From Isoptericola halalbus (lineage in GTDB: Bacteria; Actinomycetota; Actinomycetes; Actinomycetales; Cellulomonadaceae): a stretch of DNA of 64,000 bases. Shown piece by piece: positions 29,376-52,156 of the stretch. The notes beneath the pieces were generated by a model. The model was given only the letters and a program-made list of their open reading frames with translations, searched no databases and was not told the DNA's origin. The translations under genes and the position numbers were made by a program. Within the stretch, counting starts at the first letter, position 1; each line of letters begins with the position of its first letter. Location of the stretch: assembly GCA_009663185.1 (NCBI GenBank), contig VJZX01000011.1, forward strand, positions 1 through 64,000, written 5' to 3'.

Positions 29376-30545
29376 GTGACATCCCCCACGCCTGGTCCTG
29401 CCCACCCGTTGCCGGCCGACCACCCGCTCGTCGACGGCCGGACGGCCCGCTCGCCGCTCGTGCGGGCGCTGCGGGGTGATCGTCCGGAGACGACGCCGGT
29501 GTGGTTCATGCGGCAGGCGGGCCGGTCGCTGCCCGAGTACCGCGAGGTCCGCCGGGGTGTCGGGATGCTCGAGTCGTGCCTGCGGCCGGCGCTCGCGGCG
29601 GAGATCACGCTGCAGCCCGTGCGCCGCCACGGCGTGGACGCGGCGATCTTCTTCAGCGACATCGTCGTGCCGCTGCGCCTCGCCGGAGTCGGCGTCGACA
29701 TCAAGGCCGGCGTCGGGCCGGTCATGGACCAGCCGTACCGGACCGCGGACGACGTCGCGCGGCTGGTCGAGCGCGAGCTCGACGACGCGGCGCTCTCACC
29801 GATCCGCGAGGCGGTCGCGCTCACGGTCGCCGGCCTCGACGAGTTGTCAGCAGGCCGTGACCCTCACGGTTCACCGGGTTCTGACAACTCGGTAGGGGTG
29901 GGCGCCGTGCCGCTCATCGGGTTCGGCGGGGCGCCGTTCACGCTCGCCGCGTACCTGGTCGAGGGCCGCCCGTCGAGGGACCACCTCGCCGCGCGCACGC
30001 TCATGCACGCCGACCCGGACACGTGGCGCCGGCTGACCGAGTGGACTGCCGAGCTCACGGGCCGCTTCCTGTGCGCGCAGGTGCTCGCGGGCGCCTCGGC
30101 CGTCCAGCTCTTCGACTCCTGGGCCGGCTCGCTCTCGCTCGCGGACTACCAGGCGCACGTCGCGCCGTCGTCGGCCCGCGCGCTCACGCACGTCGCGGAC
30201 CTGCCCGTGCCCGGCATCCACTTCGGCACGGGCACCGGCCACCTGCTCGCCGCGATGCGCGACGTCCCGCGCGCCGCCGGTCTGGTGCACAGCGCCGTCG
30301 GCGTCGACTACCGCACGCCGCTCGACGAGGCCGCCGCCGCGCTCGGCGCCGACGTGCCGGTGCAGGGCAACGTCGACCCGGCGCTGCTCGCGGCCCCGTG
30401 GGAGGTGCTCGAGGCGCACGTGCGCGACGTCGTCGCGCGCGGCAGGGCCGCACCCGGGCACGTGCTCAACCTGGGCCACGGCGTCCCTCCCGACACGGAC
30501 CCAGCCGTGCTCACCCGCGTCGCCCGGCTGGTGCACTCGCTGTGA
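29376..30545 (+). CDS. hemE: Uroporphyrinogen decarboxylase with inserted palindromic element
   Basis: A 389-residue enzyme that converts uroporphyrinogen III to coproporphyrinogen III. The family signature PVWFMRQAGRSLPEYRE is at about 41-57, with active-site Asp in FFSDIVVP and the GFGGAPFTLAAYLVEG loop. Residues 156-172 are encoded by a 50-bp palindromic insert and have no counterpart in the family; they fall in a surface loop just before PLIGFGGAPFT. GTG 29376 lies 8 nt after a CAGAAT element with no Shine-Dalgarno. It is the first gene of hemE-hemY-hemC-hemD-hemB-hemL. The hemY start overlaps the stop in GTGA. Confidence 0.95.
   Translation: MTSPTPGPAHPLPADHPLVDGRTARSPLVRALRGDRPETTPVWFMRQAGRSLPEYREVRRGVGMLESCLRPALAAEITLQPVRRHGVDAAIFFSDIVVPLRLAGVGVDIKAGVGPVMDQPYRTADDVARLVERELDDAALSPIREAVALTVAGLDELSAGRDPHGSPGSDNSVGVGAVPLIGFGGAPFTLAAYLVEGRPSRDHLAARTLMHADPDTWRRLTEWTAELTGRFLCAQVLAGASAVQLFDSWAGSLSLADYQAHVAPSSARALTHVADLPVPGIHFGTGTGHLLAAMRDVPRAAGLVHSAVGVDYRTPLDEAAAALGADVPVQGNVDPALLAAPWEVLEAHVRDVVARGRAAPGHVLNLGHGVPPDTDPAVLTRVARLVHSL
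29841..29890 (+). repeat. In-frame palindromic element, copy in hemE
   Basis: Exactly 50 bp with perfect 10-bp ends GAGTTGTCAG and CTGACAACTC and an inner CGTGA/TCACG stem. It is read as ELSAGRDPHGSPGSDNS, beginning on a codon boundary (codon 156). Compared with the copies in hemD and copA, the fourth base is T instead of C and the paired base in the right arm is A instead of G, a compensatory pair. Confidence 0.9.
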
Positions 30546-32105: not shown

Positions 32106-33203
32106 GTGAGCATCCCCGTACAGCCCGGTACCGCACCGCTGCGCCTCGGCACCCGGGGCAGCGCGCTGGCCCTGACCCAGTCGGGCCTGATCGCGCGCCG
32201 GCTCGAGGAGCTGCTGGGCCGGCCGGTCGAGCTCGTCCGCATCCGCACCGAGGGTGACGTCAAGACCGGATCGCTCGCGTCGCTCGGCGGGACGGGCGTG
32301 TTCGTCACGGCGCTGCGCGAGGCGCTCCTCGACGGGCGCTGCGACGTGGCGGTGCACTCGCTCAAGGACCTGCCCACGACCCAGCCGCCCGAGCTCACCG
32401 TCGTCACGCCCGAGCGCGAGGACCCGCGCGACGTCCTGTGCGCGCGGGACAGGCTGACGCTCGACACCCTGCCGCGCGGAGCGCGTGTCGGGACCGGGTC
32501 GCCGCGCCGGGCCGCGCAGCTCCAGGCCGCACGCCCCGACATCGAGATCGTCGACATCCGCGGCAACGTCGACACCCGCATCGCGCGGGCGCTCGGGCCC
32601 GACGCCGACCTCGACGCCGTGGTGCTCGCGCACGCCGGGCTCATCCGGCTGGGCCGCACCGACGTCGTCACCGAGGTCCTCGCGCCGAGCGTGGTGGCAC
32701 CAGCGCCCGGGCAGGGGGCGCTCGCGGTCGAGGCGCGCACTGCCGATCTCGGGCCCGACGCCGCCGACGGCGGAGTGCTCGCAGACGCGTTCGCGGCGCT
32801 CGACCACCGGCCGACGCGCCTCGCCGTGGTCGCGGAACGCGCCGTGCTGGCCCGGCTCGAGGCCGGCTGCGCCGCCCCCGTGGGAGCGCACGCGCGCGTC
32901 GAGGACGACGCGCTGCTCCTGGGCGCCGTCGTCTCGCGCGTCGACGGGACCGAGCAGCTGATGCACCGCGCGAGCACCGAGCTCGGCGCCGACCTGCCCG
33001 TCGCCGACCTGGACGCGGTCGCGACCGAGCTGGGCGAGCGGGTGGCCGCGGCGCTGCTGGCGGACGGCGCGGCCCGGCTGGCGCCGCTGGGCGGCGCCGG
33101 CGCATCAGCGGTGAGCCCTGACGTGCCGGCGCACGAGGCGCCGCGCGTCGACGCCGCACCGCTGCACACCCCGACCGGCACCGACGACCCGGAGGGCGCG
33201 TGA
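32106..33203 (+). CDS. hemC: Hydroxymethylbilane synthase (porphobilinogen deaminase)
   Basis: A 365-residue enzyme that polymerises four porphobilinogens into hydroxymethylbilane. LRLGTRGSALALTQS (about 11-25) starts the catalytic fold. Arg and Lys residues of the active site lie in VHSLKDLPT, and the dipyrromethane cofactor Cys is in LEAGCAAPVGAHA. The C-terminal 35 residues are a Pro/Ala-rich extension. GTG 32106 is chosen because the preceding frame (from 32040) is unconserved; GAGACT lies 6 nt upstream, resembling the other leaderless starts, so an internal promoter is possible. It ends in a GTGA overlap with hemD. Confidence 0.94.
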   Translation: MSIPVQPGTAPLRLGTRGSALALTQSGLIARRLEELLGRPVELVRIRTEGDVKTGSLASLGGTGVFVTALREALLDGRCDVAVHSLKDLPTTQPPELTVVTPEREDPRDVLCARDRLTLDTLPRGARVGTGSPRRAAQLQAARPDIEIVDIRGNVDTRIARALGPDADLDAVVLAHAGLIRLGRTDVVTEVLAPSVVAPAPGQGALAVEARTADLGPDAADGGVLADAFAALDHRPTRLAVVAERAVLARLEAGCAAPVGAHARVEDDALLLGAVVSRVDGTEQLMHRASTELGADLPVADLDAVATELGERVAAALLADGAARLAPLGGAGASAVSPDVPAHEAPRVDAAPLHTPTGTDDPEGA

Positions 33204-34030
33204 GCGTGCCTGTCGTGCTGGTGCCGCGCGCGCCCGCGCGCGCCGCAGACCTCGCCGCGCTCCTGCGCGACGCCGGTGCCGAGGTCGTCGTCGCAGCCGT
33301 GATCGAGCGGGCGCCGGCTGAGCAGACGGCGGTGGTCGACGAGGCGGTGCGCGACCTGGCGGCCGGGGCCTACGCGTGGGTCGTGGTGACGAGCGTCAAC
33401 GCGGTCGACGCCCTCGTGGCGGCTGCCGCCCGGGCCGGGGTGCCGCTCGACGCGAGCGCCCGTGCGGCCCGGTGGGCCGCCGTCGGGCAGGCGACGCGGC
33501 GGGCGCTCGAGGCCGCGGGCGTCGGGGTCGAGCTCGTGCCCGACGGCGAGGCGTCCGCGGCTGGTCTGGTCGCCGCCTTCTCGGAGCTGTCAGACGCCGG
33601 TGACCCTCCAGGGTCACGAGCTGCTGACAGCTCGGCGAAGGAAGGGCGTGGCCGCGTGCTGCTGCCGCTCGGCGACCTCGCGAGCCCGACGCTCACCGAC
33701 GGGCTCACCGCGCTCGGCTGGTCGCCCGACGTCGTGACCGTCTACCGGACCGTCCACCGCGACCTGCCGCCCGACGTCGTCGAGCGCGGGCGTGCGGGCG
33801 GGTTCGACGTCGTCGTGGTCACCTCGGGGTCGGTGGCCCGCGAGGTCGCGCGACAGCTCGGGACGCGCGCGCCCGTCGTCGCGATCGGGCAGCCGTCGGC
33901 CGAGGCCGCGCGCGAGGCCGGGCTGCGCGTCGCGGCCGTCGCCGAGCGCCCGACCGACGACGCGCTCGCCGCCGCCGTCACCGCCGTCCTGTCCTCGCAC
34001 CTGAAGCCGTCGCGCAAGGAGAACGCATGA
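33200..34030 (+). CDS. hemD: Uroporphyrinogen-III synthase with inserted palindromic element
   Basis: A 276-residue HemD, the poorly conserved enzyme that closes and inverts ring D of hydroxymethylbilane. The two-domain pattern is visible: [16 protein letters not shown] at the start, [12 protein letters not shown] in domain 2, and [12 protein letters not shown] near the end. Codons 129-145 are the 50-bp palindromic element; the added residues ([17 protein letters not shown] and a few after) separate GLVAAF from [14 protein letters not shown], which are adjacent in relatives. Overlaps hemC by 4 bp and hemB by 4 bp, so it is translationally coupled. Confidence 0.92.
33584..33633 (+). repeat. 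In-frame palindromic element, copy in hemD
   Basis: Exactly 50 bp with perfect 10-bp ends GAGCTGTCAG and CTGACAGCTC and a perfect inner 8-bp hairpin GTGACCCT/AGGGTCAC. It encodes [17 protein letters not shown] from codon 129. The first 23 bases are identical to the copA copy. Confidence 0.92.
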
Positions 34031-35061: not shown

Positions 35062-35071
35062 GAGCTGTCAG
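35062..35071 (+). repeat. Possible half palindromic element before hemL
   Basis: GAGCTGTCAG, identical to the left arm of the hemD and copA elements, lies between hemB and hemL and is followed by GACCCCC. No right arm is present. A 10-base match by chance in this window is not very unlikely, so this may be a remnant or coincidence. Confidence 0.35.
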
Positions 35072-49566: not shown

Positions 49567-52095
49567 ATGTCCACGCACACCGATCACGCTCCCGGCACCG
49601 CGCCCGAGACGGCCCCTGCCGTCCCGCTGCGCGAGGTCGAGCTCGCCGTCACCGGGATGACCTGCGCGTCGTGCGTCGCGCGGGTCGAGCGCAAGCTGAC
49701 GAAGGTCCCGGGCGTCGACGCGACGGTCAACCTGCCGCTCGAGAGCGCGCACGTCGTGCTCACGCAGCAGGTGTCGGACGACGAGCTCGTCAAGGCGGTC
49801 GAGGCCGCGGGGTACGAGGCCCGGGTGACCGGCTCGCGCTCGGTGGCCCCGGACGCGGTGGACGAGCAGGACGGGCACGAAGCCGGCCACGAGGAGGCCG
49901 GGGAGCACGCCGGTCCCGTCGAGTACCGCGGCACCGACCTCCTGCGCCGCCTCCGCGTCTCGGCGGTGCTCACCGTCCCGGTGCTGGCCCTGTCGATGAT
50001 CCCCGCGCTGCAGCTCACCGGCTGGCAGTGGATCGTTGCGGCGCTCGCGCTCCCCGTCGTCACGTGGGGCGCCTGGCCGTTCCACGTCGCGGCGGTGCGC
50101 GCGGCGCGCCACGGGGCCTCGACCATGGACACCCTGGTGTCGGTAGGCGTGACGGCGGCGACCCTGTGGTCGCTGTGGGCGCTGCTCCTTGGCGGCGCCG
50201 GTGAGCTCGGCATGCGCATGGAGGCCACGCTGCTCCCGAGCCGGGAGCACACGGGCATGCCCGAGCTCTACTTCGAGGTTGCGGCCGTCGTCACCACGTT
50301 CCTGCTGGCCGGCCGCTATGCCGAGCACCGCTCCAAGCGGCGCGCGGGCGACGCCCTGCGCTCGCTGCTCGAGCTCGGGGCGAAGGATGCCGAGCGGGTC
50401 ACGCTCGGGTCGGACGGCCGCCCGGCGGTCGGGCCCGGCGGCGGGTGGGTCACCGAGCGTGTGCCCGTCGCGGTGCTGCACACGGGCGACGCGTTCACCG
50501 TCCGGCCGGGCGAGAAGGTCGCGACCGACGGCGTCGTGCTCTCCGGGACCTCCGCCGTCGACACTTCGCTGCTCACGGGTGAGCCCGTGCCCGTCGACGT
50601 GGGCCCGGGTGACGCCGTCACGGGCGCGACGGTCAACACCTCGGGCCACCTGCTCGTGCAGGCCACGCGCGTGGGCTCGAAGACGACGCTTGCTCAGATC
50701 AGCCGGCTCGTCGCGCAGGCGCAGACCGGCAAGGCGCCCGTGCAGCGCCTGGCGGACCGGATCTCGGCGGTGTTCGTGCCGGTCGCGTTCGGGATCGCGG
50801 TGCTGACGCTCGCCGGGTGGCTCCTGGCCGGGGCGAGCCCGCAGTTCGCCTTCACGGCCGCGGTCGCGGTCCTCATCATCGCCTGCCCGTGCGCGCTCGG
50901 GCTCGCGACGCCCACGGCTCTGCTGGTCGGCACGGGCCGCGGCGCGCAGCTCGGCGTGCTCATCAAGGGCCCCGAGATCCTCGAGTCGACGCGCCGCATC
51001 GACACCGTGGTGCTCGACAAGACCGGCACCGTCACCGAGGGCCGCATGCGGCTCGAGCGCGTGACGCCCGCCGACGGCATCGACCCCGACGAGGCGCTCC
51101 GCTACGCCGGCGCCGTCGAGGCGATGAGCGAGCACCCAGTCGCGCAGGCGATCGCGTCCGCGGCCCGCGAGCTGTCAGACGCCGGTGACCCCAGAGCGTC
51201 ATCCCCTTCTGACAGCTCCACGGAGGAGTCGGAGGAGTCGGAGCAGGAGCAGGAGCAGGAGCAGGAGCGGGGGGCGCTGGAGGTCACGGGGTTCGTCGCG
51301 ACGCCGGGCGGCGGCGTCGAGGGCCTCGTGCGCGCCGCGCACTCCGGCCTCGGCACGGGTGGTGCCGGCACGGGCACGACGGCGGCGCTCGCGCTCAACG
51401 CGCGCCGGGTCGTCGTGGGGCGGCTCACCTGGCTCGACGGGAGCGACGTGCGTGTCCCGGACGAGGTGCGTGCTGCCGTCGAGAGGGCCGAGGAGTCCGG
51501 GGCGACGACCGTCGTCGTCGCGTGGGACGGCACCGCGCGCGCGGTGCTCGAGCTGCGCGACCCGGTCAAGGCGACGTCCGCGCAGGCGGTCGCCGAGCTG
51601 ATCGAGCTCGGGCTGCGGCCCGTGCTGCTCACCGGCGACTCTCAGGGTGCGGCGCGCGAGGCGGCGCGGCAGGTCGGGATCGCGCAGTCCGACGTCGTCG
51701 CGCGCGTGCTGCCGCAGGACAAGACGCGCGCCGTGGCCCGGCTCCAGGCGGAGGGCCGCGTGGTGGCGATGGTCGGCGACGGCGTGAACGACGCAGCGGC
51801 GCTCGCCACGGCCGACCTCGGCCTGGCGATGGGCACGGGCACGGACGTCGCGATCGAGGCGAGCGACATCACGCTCGTGCGCGGCGACCTGCGTGCCGCG
51901 CCGACGGCCGTGCGGCTGTCCCGCGCGACGCTGCGGGTCATCAAGCAGAACCTGTTCTGGGCGTTCGCGTACAACACCGCGGCGATCCCGCTCGCGGCGG
52001 CCGGGCTGCTCAACCCGATGATCGCGGGCGCGGCCATGGCCGCGTCGTCGGTCCTCGTGGTGAGCAACTCGCTGCGCCTGCGCCACGCCGGCTGA
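49567..52095 (+). CDS. copA: Copper-exporting P1B-type ATPase with inserted palindromic element
   Basis: An 842-residue Cu(I) exporter. One N-terminal HMA domain has GMTCASC (Cys33, Cys36), followed by eight predicted helices with the CPC motif near 440-442, the phosphorylated Asp in DKTGT (about 484), the HP motif in SEHPVAQAI, and [10 protein letters not shown]. Codons 535-551 are a 50-bp palindromic element in the nucleotide-binding domain, followed by a Glu/Ser/Gln tract ([15 protein letters not shown]) before ALEVTGF. In relatives this segment is only a few residues, so about 30 extra residues lie on a surface loop. The enzyme should still function, since all motifs are intact. Confidence 0.94.
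51169..51218 (+). repeat. In-frame palindromic element, copy in copA
   Basis: Exactly 50 bp with perfect 10-bp ends GAGCTGTCAG and CTGACAGCTC. It encodes [17 protein letters not shown] from codon 535. The first 23 bases equal the hemD copy; the centre differs (GACGC/GCGTC pairing instead of the hemD inner hairpin). It is followed by GAGGAGTCG and GAGCAG microrepeats. Confidence 0.92.
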
Positions 52096-52098
52096 CGT

Positions 52099-52156
52099 TG
52101 TGAGCGGAGTCTTGGCCCGGTCGGCGACCCCCGACCGGGCCAAGACTCCGCTCACA
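52099..52156. terminator. 26-bp perfect palindrome after copA
   Basis: A perfect 26-bp inverted repeat (52099-52124 and 52131-52156) with a 6-nt loop begins 4 bp after the copA stop. It ends the copper operon before the CPBP gene, whose own -10 is 20 bp further on. It is unusually long and fully paired for a terminator. Confidence 0.85.

Follow-up and report, generated by a model that had tools for sequence, protein, structure and literature searches.

A 50-bp palindrome, probably a dispersed repeat, read in essentially one frame within genes of Isoptericola and other Actinomycetota

The window analyzed here is the whole stretch of 64,000 nucleotides from contig VJZX01000011.1 of Isoptericola halalbus. 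Within it, hemE, hemD and copA each contain a block of exactly 50 bp with perfect 10-bp inverted ends, and all three blocks begin at a codon boundary (phase 0). The host genes and blocks are as follows.

29376..30545, + strand: hemE, uroporphyrinogen decarboxylase, host gene (Pfam URO-D, 7.6e-104)
29841..29890, + strand: 50-bp palindromic element in hemE, phase 0, encoding ELSAGRDPHGSPGSDNS
33200..34030, + strand: hemD, uroporphyrinogen-III synthase, host gene (Pfam HEM4, 1.6e-45)
33584..33633, + strand: 50-bp palindromic element in hemD, phase 0, encoding 17 residues
49144..52095, + strand: copA, copper-type P-type ATPase, host gene (Pfam E1-E2_ATPase, Hydrolase, HMA)
51169..51218, + strand: 50-bp palindromic element in copA (P-type ATPase), phase 0, encoding 17 residues

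The pattern GAGYTGTCAG-N30-CTGACARCTC is present in all three genes. The more permissive pattern TGTCAG-N{20,40}-CTGACA matched three times in the window compared with 0.05 matches expected, and none of 100 shuffled sequences contained three or more, which rules out chance as the origin of the three blocks. The initial annotation had described three codon-aligned 50-bp palindromes that encode peptides of the ELS...D-S type, and this description can be read directly from the letters. Its remark that the blocks share the same orientation has little meaning, because the element is nearly symmetric and the same kind of peptide is obtained from either strand. A C/T–G/A pair in the hemE arms, which had been put forward as compensatory, does exist in the letters, but the two columns concerned (4 and 47) mix freely over 15 copies from the same genome (CG 6, UG 3, UA 2, other 4) and the pair therefore carries no weight as evidence. 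Across the whole element structure, no covariation above shuffles was found in these 15 copies, and a proof of RNA structure from them was consequently rejected. Rfam yielded no match for the three window elements at E values up to 1. The codon TCA occurs six times within the three elements and three times across the rest of the eight window genes, an excess indicating that the sequence is set by the DNA and not by codon usage.

The blocks had also been assigned to surface loops. The hemE segment is unaligned or mostly gapped against two solved uroporphyrinogen decarboxylases and the loops of relatives vary in length, so that a surface-loop position is likely, as judged by alignment alone. Two further features of the window were recorded. 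A lone exact arm, GAGCTGTCAG, lies at 35062–35071 between hemB and the next gene, with no partner arm in the stretch read. Immediately 3' of copA, a near-perfect palindrome of ~57 bp (52099–52155) has a terminator-like appearance; its one Rfam match, to an unrelated miRNA model, was below threshold.

The genome of the window (G000; 4,103,245 bases, 110 contigs) was searched in full with a covariance model built from 15 of its own copies. This search for further copies, which the initial annotation had called for, identified 20 places with E < 1e-7 across the 4.1 Mb, many of them in frame, and three weaker places (E = 0.006, 0.25 and 0.32). The first of the weaker places, C45:45362 (L121 near 1567), is a palindrome with an interior resembling the type of a congeneric genome, G001; the interior of L042 near 884 (contig C78) is likewise similar to a G001 subfamily, and neither is of the G000 type. 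The element measures 50 bp at 18 of the 20 strong places and 47 and 51 bp at the other two. The arms of these 20 places contain 5 mismatches in 400 positions, and the TGTCAG positions 1 in 240, values biased toward intact ends since most of the copies were initially detected with a pattern requiring exact ends. Over the 18 copies of 50 bp, the mean pairwise identity of the inner 30 bases is 20.4/30 (68%). Intragenic copies sit in the middle of genes and exist alongside intergenic ones. According to Pfam, the additional host genes encode an H2TH/Fpg-type glycosylase, MoeA, a biotin carboxylase with an MCC-alpha domain, two 2-oxoacid dehydrogenase E2 proteins, an ABC transporter, a thioredoxin/NHL protein and a protein with HrpA-type helicase domains. 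Another host ORF is methyltransferase-like and had no Pfam match; we take it to be prmC-like. The E2 gene on contig C56 carries two elements 150 bp apart. A decayed copy (L019, 1497–1546; C37:12102) lies in an ABC transporter loop where G001 has two elements (L146, 3166 and 3229); it was left out of the covariance model and is among the copies that passed the frame test described below.

Exact TGTCAG-N30-CTGACA cores were counted in 18 congeneric genomes. The highest numbers were found in G001 (98), Isoptericola luteus NEAU-Y5 (G005; 67) and Isoptericola sp. BMS4 (G014; 48), followed by I. sp. QY 916 (G006; 20), G000 (18), Krasilnikoviella flava (G004; 13), G003 (7) and G008 (7). No exact core was present in 10 of the 18 genomes, and the reversed control was absent from all 18. 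I. luteus belongs to the family Promicromonosporaceae in the order Micrococcales. The copies of G001 fall into two large subfamilies, one with the interior GGTATACC and GAGYTG ends, the other with the interior GGTGGGC and ends that differ outside TGTCAG (e.g. GTGTCAG..CTGACAC). Identical copies, which would point to present activity, are few among those seen and consist of tandem pairs and repeated flanks in G005. Among 396 genomes sampled across the phylum, 22 had a match (a single one in 18 of them) compared with 7 for the control. These phylum-wide matches are mostly at chance level, so that copies of the family cluster in certain lineages. Within this phylum, the genomes G252 and G114 contain repeats of other sequence which fit TGTCAG-N30-CTGACA (15 and 4 copies, respectively). 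A pattern specifying 20 bases was found in at least 114 stretches of named genomes (congeners included; hereafter named-genome loci), among the matches listed in Isoptericola, Krasilnikoviella, Cellulomonas, Oerskovia, Luteimicrobium, Cellulosimicrobium, Antribacter and Microlunatus. In metagenome-assembled genomes, the matches listed for this pattern included Propionibacteriaceae, Propionicimonas, Nocardioidaceae, Frankiaceae, Geodermatophilaceae and Nanopelagicales. The 50-bp element family thus occurs in several families of Actinomycetota. No copies were found in viral contigs or, with one 70-base query, in plasmids.

The reading frame of intragenic copies was assessed with a strict test that required an open frame through the element and 150 nt on each side, with both flanks coding-like according to codon scores trained on the eight window genes. 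Within the genus, 36 of the 100 copies with enough flank passed, and all 36 were in phase 0. Among the named-genome loci (at least 114 stretches), 14 of 136 copies passed, again all in phase 0. At least two copies are common to both sets, and the 50 passing copies are non-independent, as several of them come from one site shared between species. When the coding threshold was lowered, phase 0 outnumbered phase 2 by 44 to 1 in the genus and by 23 to 1 in the named-genome loci, so that two phase-2 copies (L049 and L294) stood against 67 in phase 0. Seven phase-1 or phase-2 copies that a looser test had called in frame were rejected: an in-frame stop precedes each of them by 3 to 84 nt, four also stop within the element, and none of the seven reads through. 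The frames that the element leaves open are more numerous than those used. In the 214 readings of 107 genus copies, phase 0 was open in 198, phase 1 in none and phase 2 in 203, and in the 320 readings of the named-genome loci phases 0 and 2 were open in 257 and 185, respectively. All 203 open phase-2 readings of the genus copies contain cysteine, and their mean hydropathy is −0.18 compared with −1.17 for phase 0. Inside genes, essentially one of the two open frames is used, namely the hydrophilic ELS...D-S frame of phase 0. Since a machine that inserts DNA is blind to frame, the bias would be most simply explained by selection against phase-2 peptides.

In orthologous genes of relatives, loops were found both with and without the element. 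Among the 18 congeneric genomes, the hemE element is present in G000 and G005 alone; in the other 16 the loop is different and in most of them shorter, those of G003 and G014 being about equal in length but different. At ten G000 host genes, G001 is filled at seven (hemD, copA, moeA, mccA, hrpA, prmC-like and nei-like) and G005 at four (hemE, copA, mccA and NHL, the latter with two copies). None of nine sites is filled in G007 or in G015, in neither of which mccA was found, and none of ten in G009. The hemD site lacks the 50-bp element in G015, G007, G005 and G009. The copA loop is also filled in K. flava and in strains BMS4 and QY 916, and an element is present at the mccA site of G000, G001, G003, G005, G008 and BMS4. 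In a wider comparison, the copA, mccA, E2-linker and hrpA positions are filled in several species, including G008, which belongs to another clade. MoeA shows a clean gain of 17 codons relative to G007 and G015, and over seven sites the net gain relative to G015, determined by hand, ranges from 7 to 17 codons (7 to 16 at the sites other than MoeA). Some relatives have loops that exceed the filled loop in length (hemD of G007, hrpA of G005 and G009). As loop lengths differ, the comparison does not fix the length of the insert, and the loops are too variable to fix an insertion junction or a target site duplication. The orthologue comparison suggested in the initial annotation thus revealed hemE, hemD and copA loops without the element, and in the genomes looked at we found neither the same residues in distant relatives nor a lack of further copies.

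The element interiors are species-specific. Mean inner identity is 20.6/30 within 13 G000 copies and 23.3 within six G001 copies, compared with 9.4 between the two genomes; the moeA site of G001, which exceptionally holds a G000-type copy, was omitted from the G001 figure. At the seven sites shared by G000 and G001, orthologous pairs scored a total of 76 compared with a permuted mean of 77.0, and 68% of permutations were as high. Even at shared sites, the interiors belong to the genome and not to the site. A tree of hemE-hemG-hemC-hemB groups G001 with G007 and G015 (bootstrap 98) and not with G000; with midpoint rooting, the two family-rich clades come out as sisters.

Other palindromes were encountered in the same loops. 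The hemD loops of G010 (L184) and G013 (L185) hold an unrelated palindrome of 84–100 bp with perfect arms of 17 and 25 bp, the hrpA loop of G009 (L194) holds a 96-bp palindrome with 24-bp arms, and that of G005 a 99-bp palindrome. A query with the hemD-type palindrome gave 44 matches each in G010 and G013 (40 candidates scored per genome), and the hrpA-type query gave 34 and 36 matches in these genomes and none in G005. Most of the hemD-type copies retrieved lie outside genes: four of 53 analyzed loci passed the coding test, and these are the hemD genes of the two genomes, each counted twice. These observations outline a second palindrome family (L314–L336, L338–L377) of about 85–105 bp with long, near-perfect arms and a conserved inner part, which has many copies in a clade mostly without the 50-bp family and occurs in frame in hemD. 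Six of its loci gave no Rfam match at E values up to 0.5.

The surroundings of the 50-bp element are skewed in composition. In 107 genus copies and 161 copies from the named-genome loci (at least 114 stretches), the flanks are C-rich 5' and G-rich 3' of the element. After dropping rows with a neighboring core in the flank, the C and G fractions were 0.49 vs 0.26 in the 56 genus copies kept and 0.52 vs 0.21 in the 138 named-genome copies kept. The flank skew is positive at all ten tested intragenic sites of G000 (mean 0.46 vs about 0). Insertion into pre-existing hairpins was considered in this context; at 37 non-independent sites where the loop lacks the element, the skew is weak, with a mean of 0.11 against a null of −0.01 (sd 0.19). 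Relative to permuted flanks, pairing between the two flanks was absent in the 56 genus copies kept (z = −0.5) and present in the 138 kept from the named-genome loci (z = 6.6). The arms of G001 copies covary modestly (z = 3.9 and 3.3, 0/1000 shuffles each) in two types of 44 and 46 copies that were sorted by eye with the rest left out, and related copies inflate such tests.

The blocks are probably copies of a small (50 bp) dispersed palindrome without a gene of its own, which has spread in some actinobacterial genomes. This reading is based on the near-invariant ends, the variable and roughly palindromic interior, and the orthologous loops without the element, and copy numbers range from tens in some species to none in close relatives. 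Regarding movement, replacement and target choice, we infer that copies would be moved in trans by an enzyme that recognizes the palindrome, most likely its TGTCAG/CTGACA ends. Insertions that break genes would be lost, and those that lengthen a tolerant loop by a whole number of codons would survive. On either strand, the TGA in the ends shuts one frame, and a second frame always gives a less hydrophilic, cysteine-containing peptide. Phase 0 would provide a hydrophilic linker made largely of small and polar residues, and proteins would therefore retain phase-0 copies almost exclusively. On this view, the element would be a selfish repeat whose near harmlessness in genes stems from the peptide that the palindrome spells in one frame. 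ORFs shared across the named-genome loci (at least 114 stretches) were sought as a mobilizer and gave nothing consistent, ten ORFs between neighboring copies (one of them between chance matches) were ordinary or unassigned according to Pfam, and no parent transposon was found in the loci examined.

Conservation of the ends inside genes could also reflect selection on a DNA site. It is improbable, however, that the palindrome is a chromosomal binding site of a host protein (nucleoid, replication or repair) with copies kept by selection. The near invariance of the ends at an inner identity of 68%, the retention of rare TCA codons and the covarying arms of G001 would fit such a site, but 10 of the 18 congeneric genomes have no exact core, which would be odd if the site were needed; moreover, copies lie within enzyme genes, interiors vary by species, and the 15 own copies show no covariation. 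Similarly small is the probability that the copies are transcription terminators or mRNA hairpins kept for an RNA function, some of which were engulfed by genes. The C-rich and G-rich flanks, their pairing in the named-genome loci, as expected of longer stems, and the location of some copies a few bases past a stop codon point in this direction, whereas the genus flanks pair no better than permuted ones, the three window elements have no Rfam match, and the intragenic copies lie mid-gene. REP sequences moved by a Y1 (TnpA-REP) transposase resemble the element in size, palindromic form and the occurrence of pairs, mostly 10–11 bp apart, and in G005 the coding sequences on either side clearly converge on the element at 8 of 39 copies and clearly diverge at 3, a placement reminiscent of REPs. 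Yet the Y1/RAYT transposase domain (PF01797) was detected in none of the 18 congeneric genomes compared with 5 of 14 control genomes, and the conserved ends contain neither GTAG nor CGTC. This origin is highly improbable and, as far as Pfam PF01797 reaches, ruled out.

Where a loop is filled in more than one species, inheritance by descent and recurrent occupation of permissive loops are both plausible. The positions may be ancestral, with interiors later homogenized per genome by concerted evolution or gene conversion and copies lost in G007, G015 and others; we regard this as possible but somewhat doubtful. It concerns the origin of the shared sites and is compatible with a dispersed palindrome. 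The filling of seven of ten tested G000 sites in G001 and four of ten in G005, the six genomes filled at mccA, the G000-type copy retained in moeA of G001, the decayed L019 where G001 has two elements, the G001-like interior at C45:45362 and the sister position of the two family-rich clades all argue for ancestral positions. On the other hand, copies at orthologous sites resemble each other no more than copies at different sites do. In addition, G001 groups with G007 and G015, which are without the family, so that under descent every copy would have gone from these two genomes without visible scars. Furthermore, G008 with its mccA copy belongs to a clade otherwise without the family, and another palindrome family occupies the hemD loop in G010 and G013. 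Rather unlikely, although conceivable, is a scenario in which certain loops are standing docking sites for palindromes, whose occupant is replaced by the active family of the lineage through a palindrome-directed, non-Y1 exchange; the occupants would then be either the TGTCAG type with its lineage-specific interior or the unrelated family of ~100 bp.

Both filled and empty loops exist among sister species and named strains (e.g. Isoptericola luteus NEAU-Y5, Krasilnikoviella flava), which makes several questions testable in common laboratory strains, namely what moves the elements, why one frame is used, whether they carry a cost for the enzymes, and why the same loops are filled repeatedly. 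For annotators, extra loops of 17 residues in such proteins may be repeats.

The element had been likened to Rickettsia palindromic elements (RPE), which, as described in parts of PMC2229807 and PMC10969869, are short palindromes that lie between genes and also, in frame, within conserved genes unrelated to one another, where the protein tolerates them. Many in-frame copies in genes of unrelated function and orthologues without the insert support this likeness. The RPE are longer (about 105–150 bp; 105–146 in the relevant part of PMC2229807), and the element described here differs in its high-GC actinobacterial host, its TGTCAG...CTGACA core with a species-specific interior and the filling of the same loops in several species; it is set apart by size and description and not by sequence comparison. 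No report of this element in actinobacteria was found in the open-access literature searched. GTAG/CGTC-tagged REPs, according to the portion of PMC3733652 consulted, are likewise small palindromes that occur singly or as dimers, many between genes and some within ORFs; here, the ends are GAGYTGTCAG/CTGACARCTC without such a tag and the genus is without a Y1/RAYT gene. The word "actinobacteria" is absent from the main text of PMC3733652. MITEs (e.g. ERIC/RU, NEMIS, RUP) share terminal inverted repeats, many copies and the lack of an own gene, and are described in sections of PMC2229807 and PMC10969869 as inverted repeats that are non-autonomous and in some cases form in-frame fusions with genes, with a size of ~100–200 bp (PMC2229807) compared with 50 bp here. 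Protein-coding palindromes of Wolbachia, which appear in PMC2229807 as a cited title, also lie within coding sequence, in another host. In the mitochondria of Nematomorpha, another host again, both arms of coding palindromes are said to encode the gene's own protein (PMC6649704, in part), whereas the block described here is an extra loop. In these excerpts, coding palindromes are described from Rickettsia, Wolbachia and a few other bacteria, and the element appears to follow the same way of life in high-GC actinobacteria. By analogy, it would work like an RPE without being classed as one, and its place would be among the protein-coding palindromic elements.
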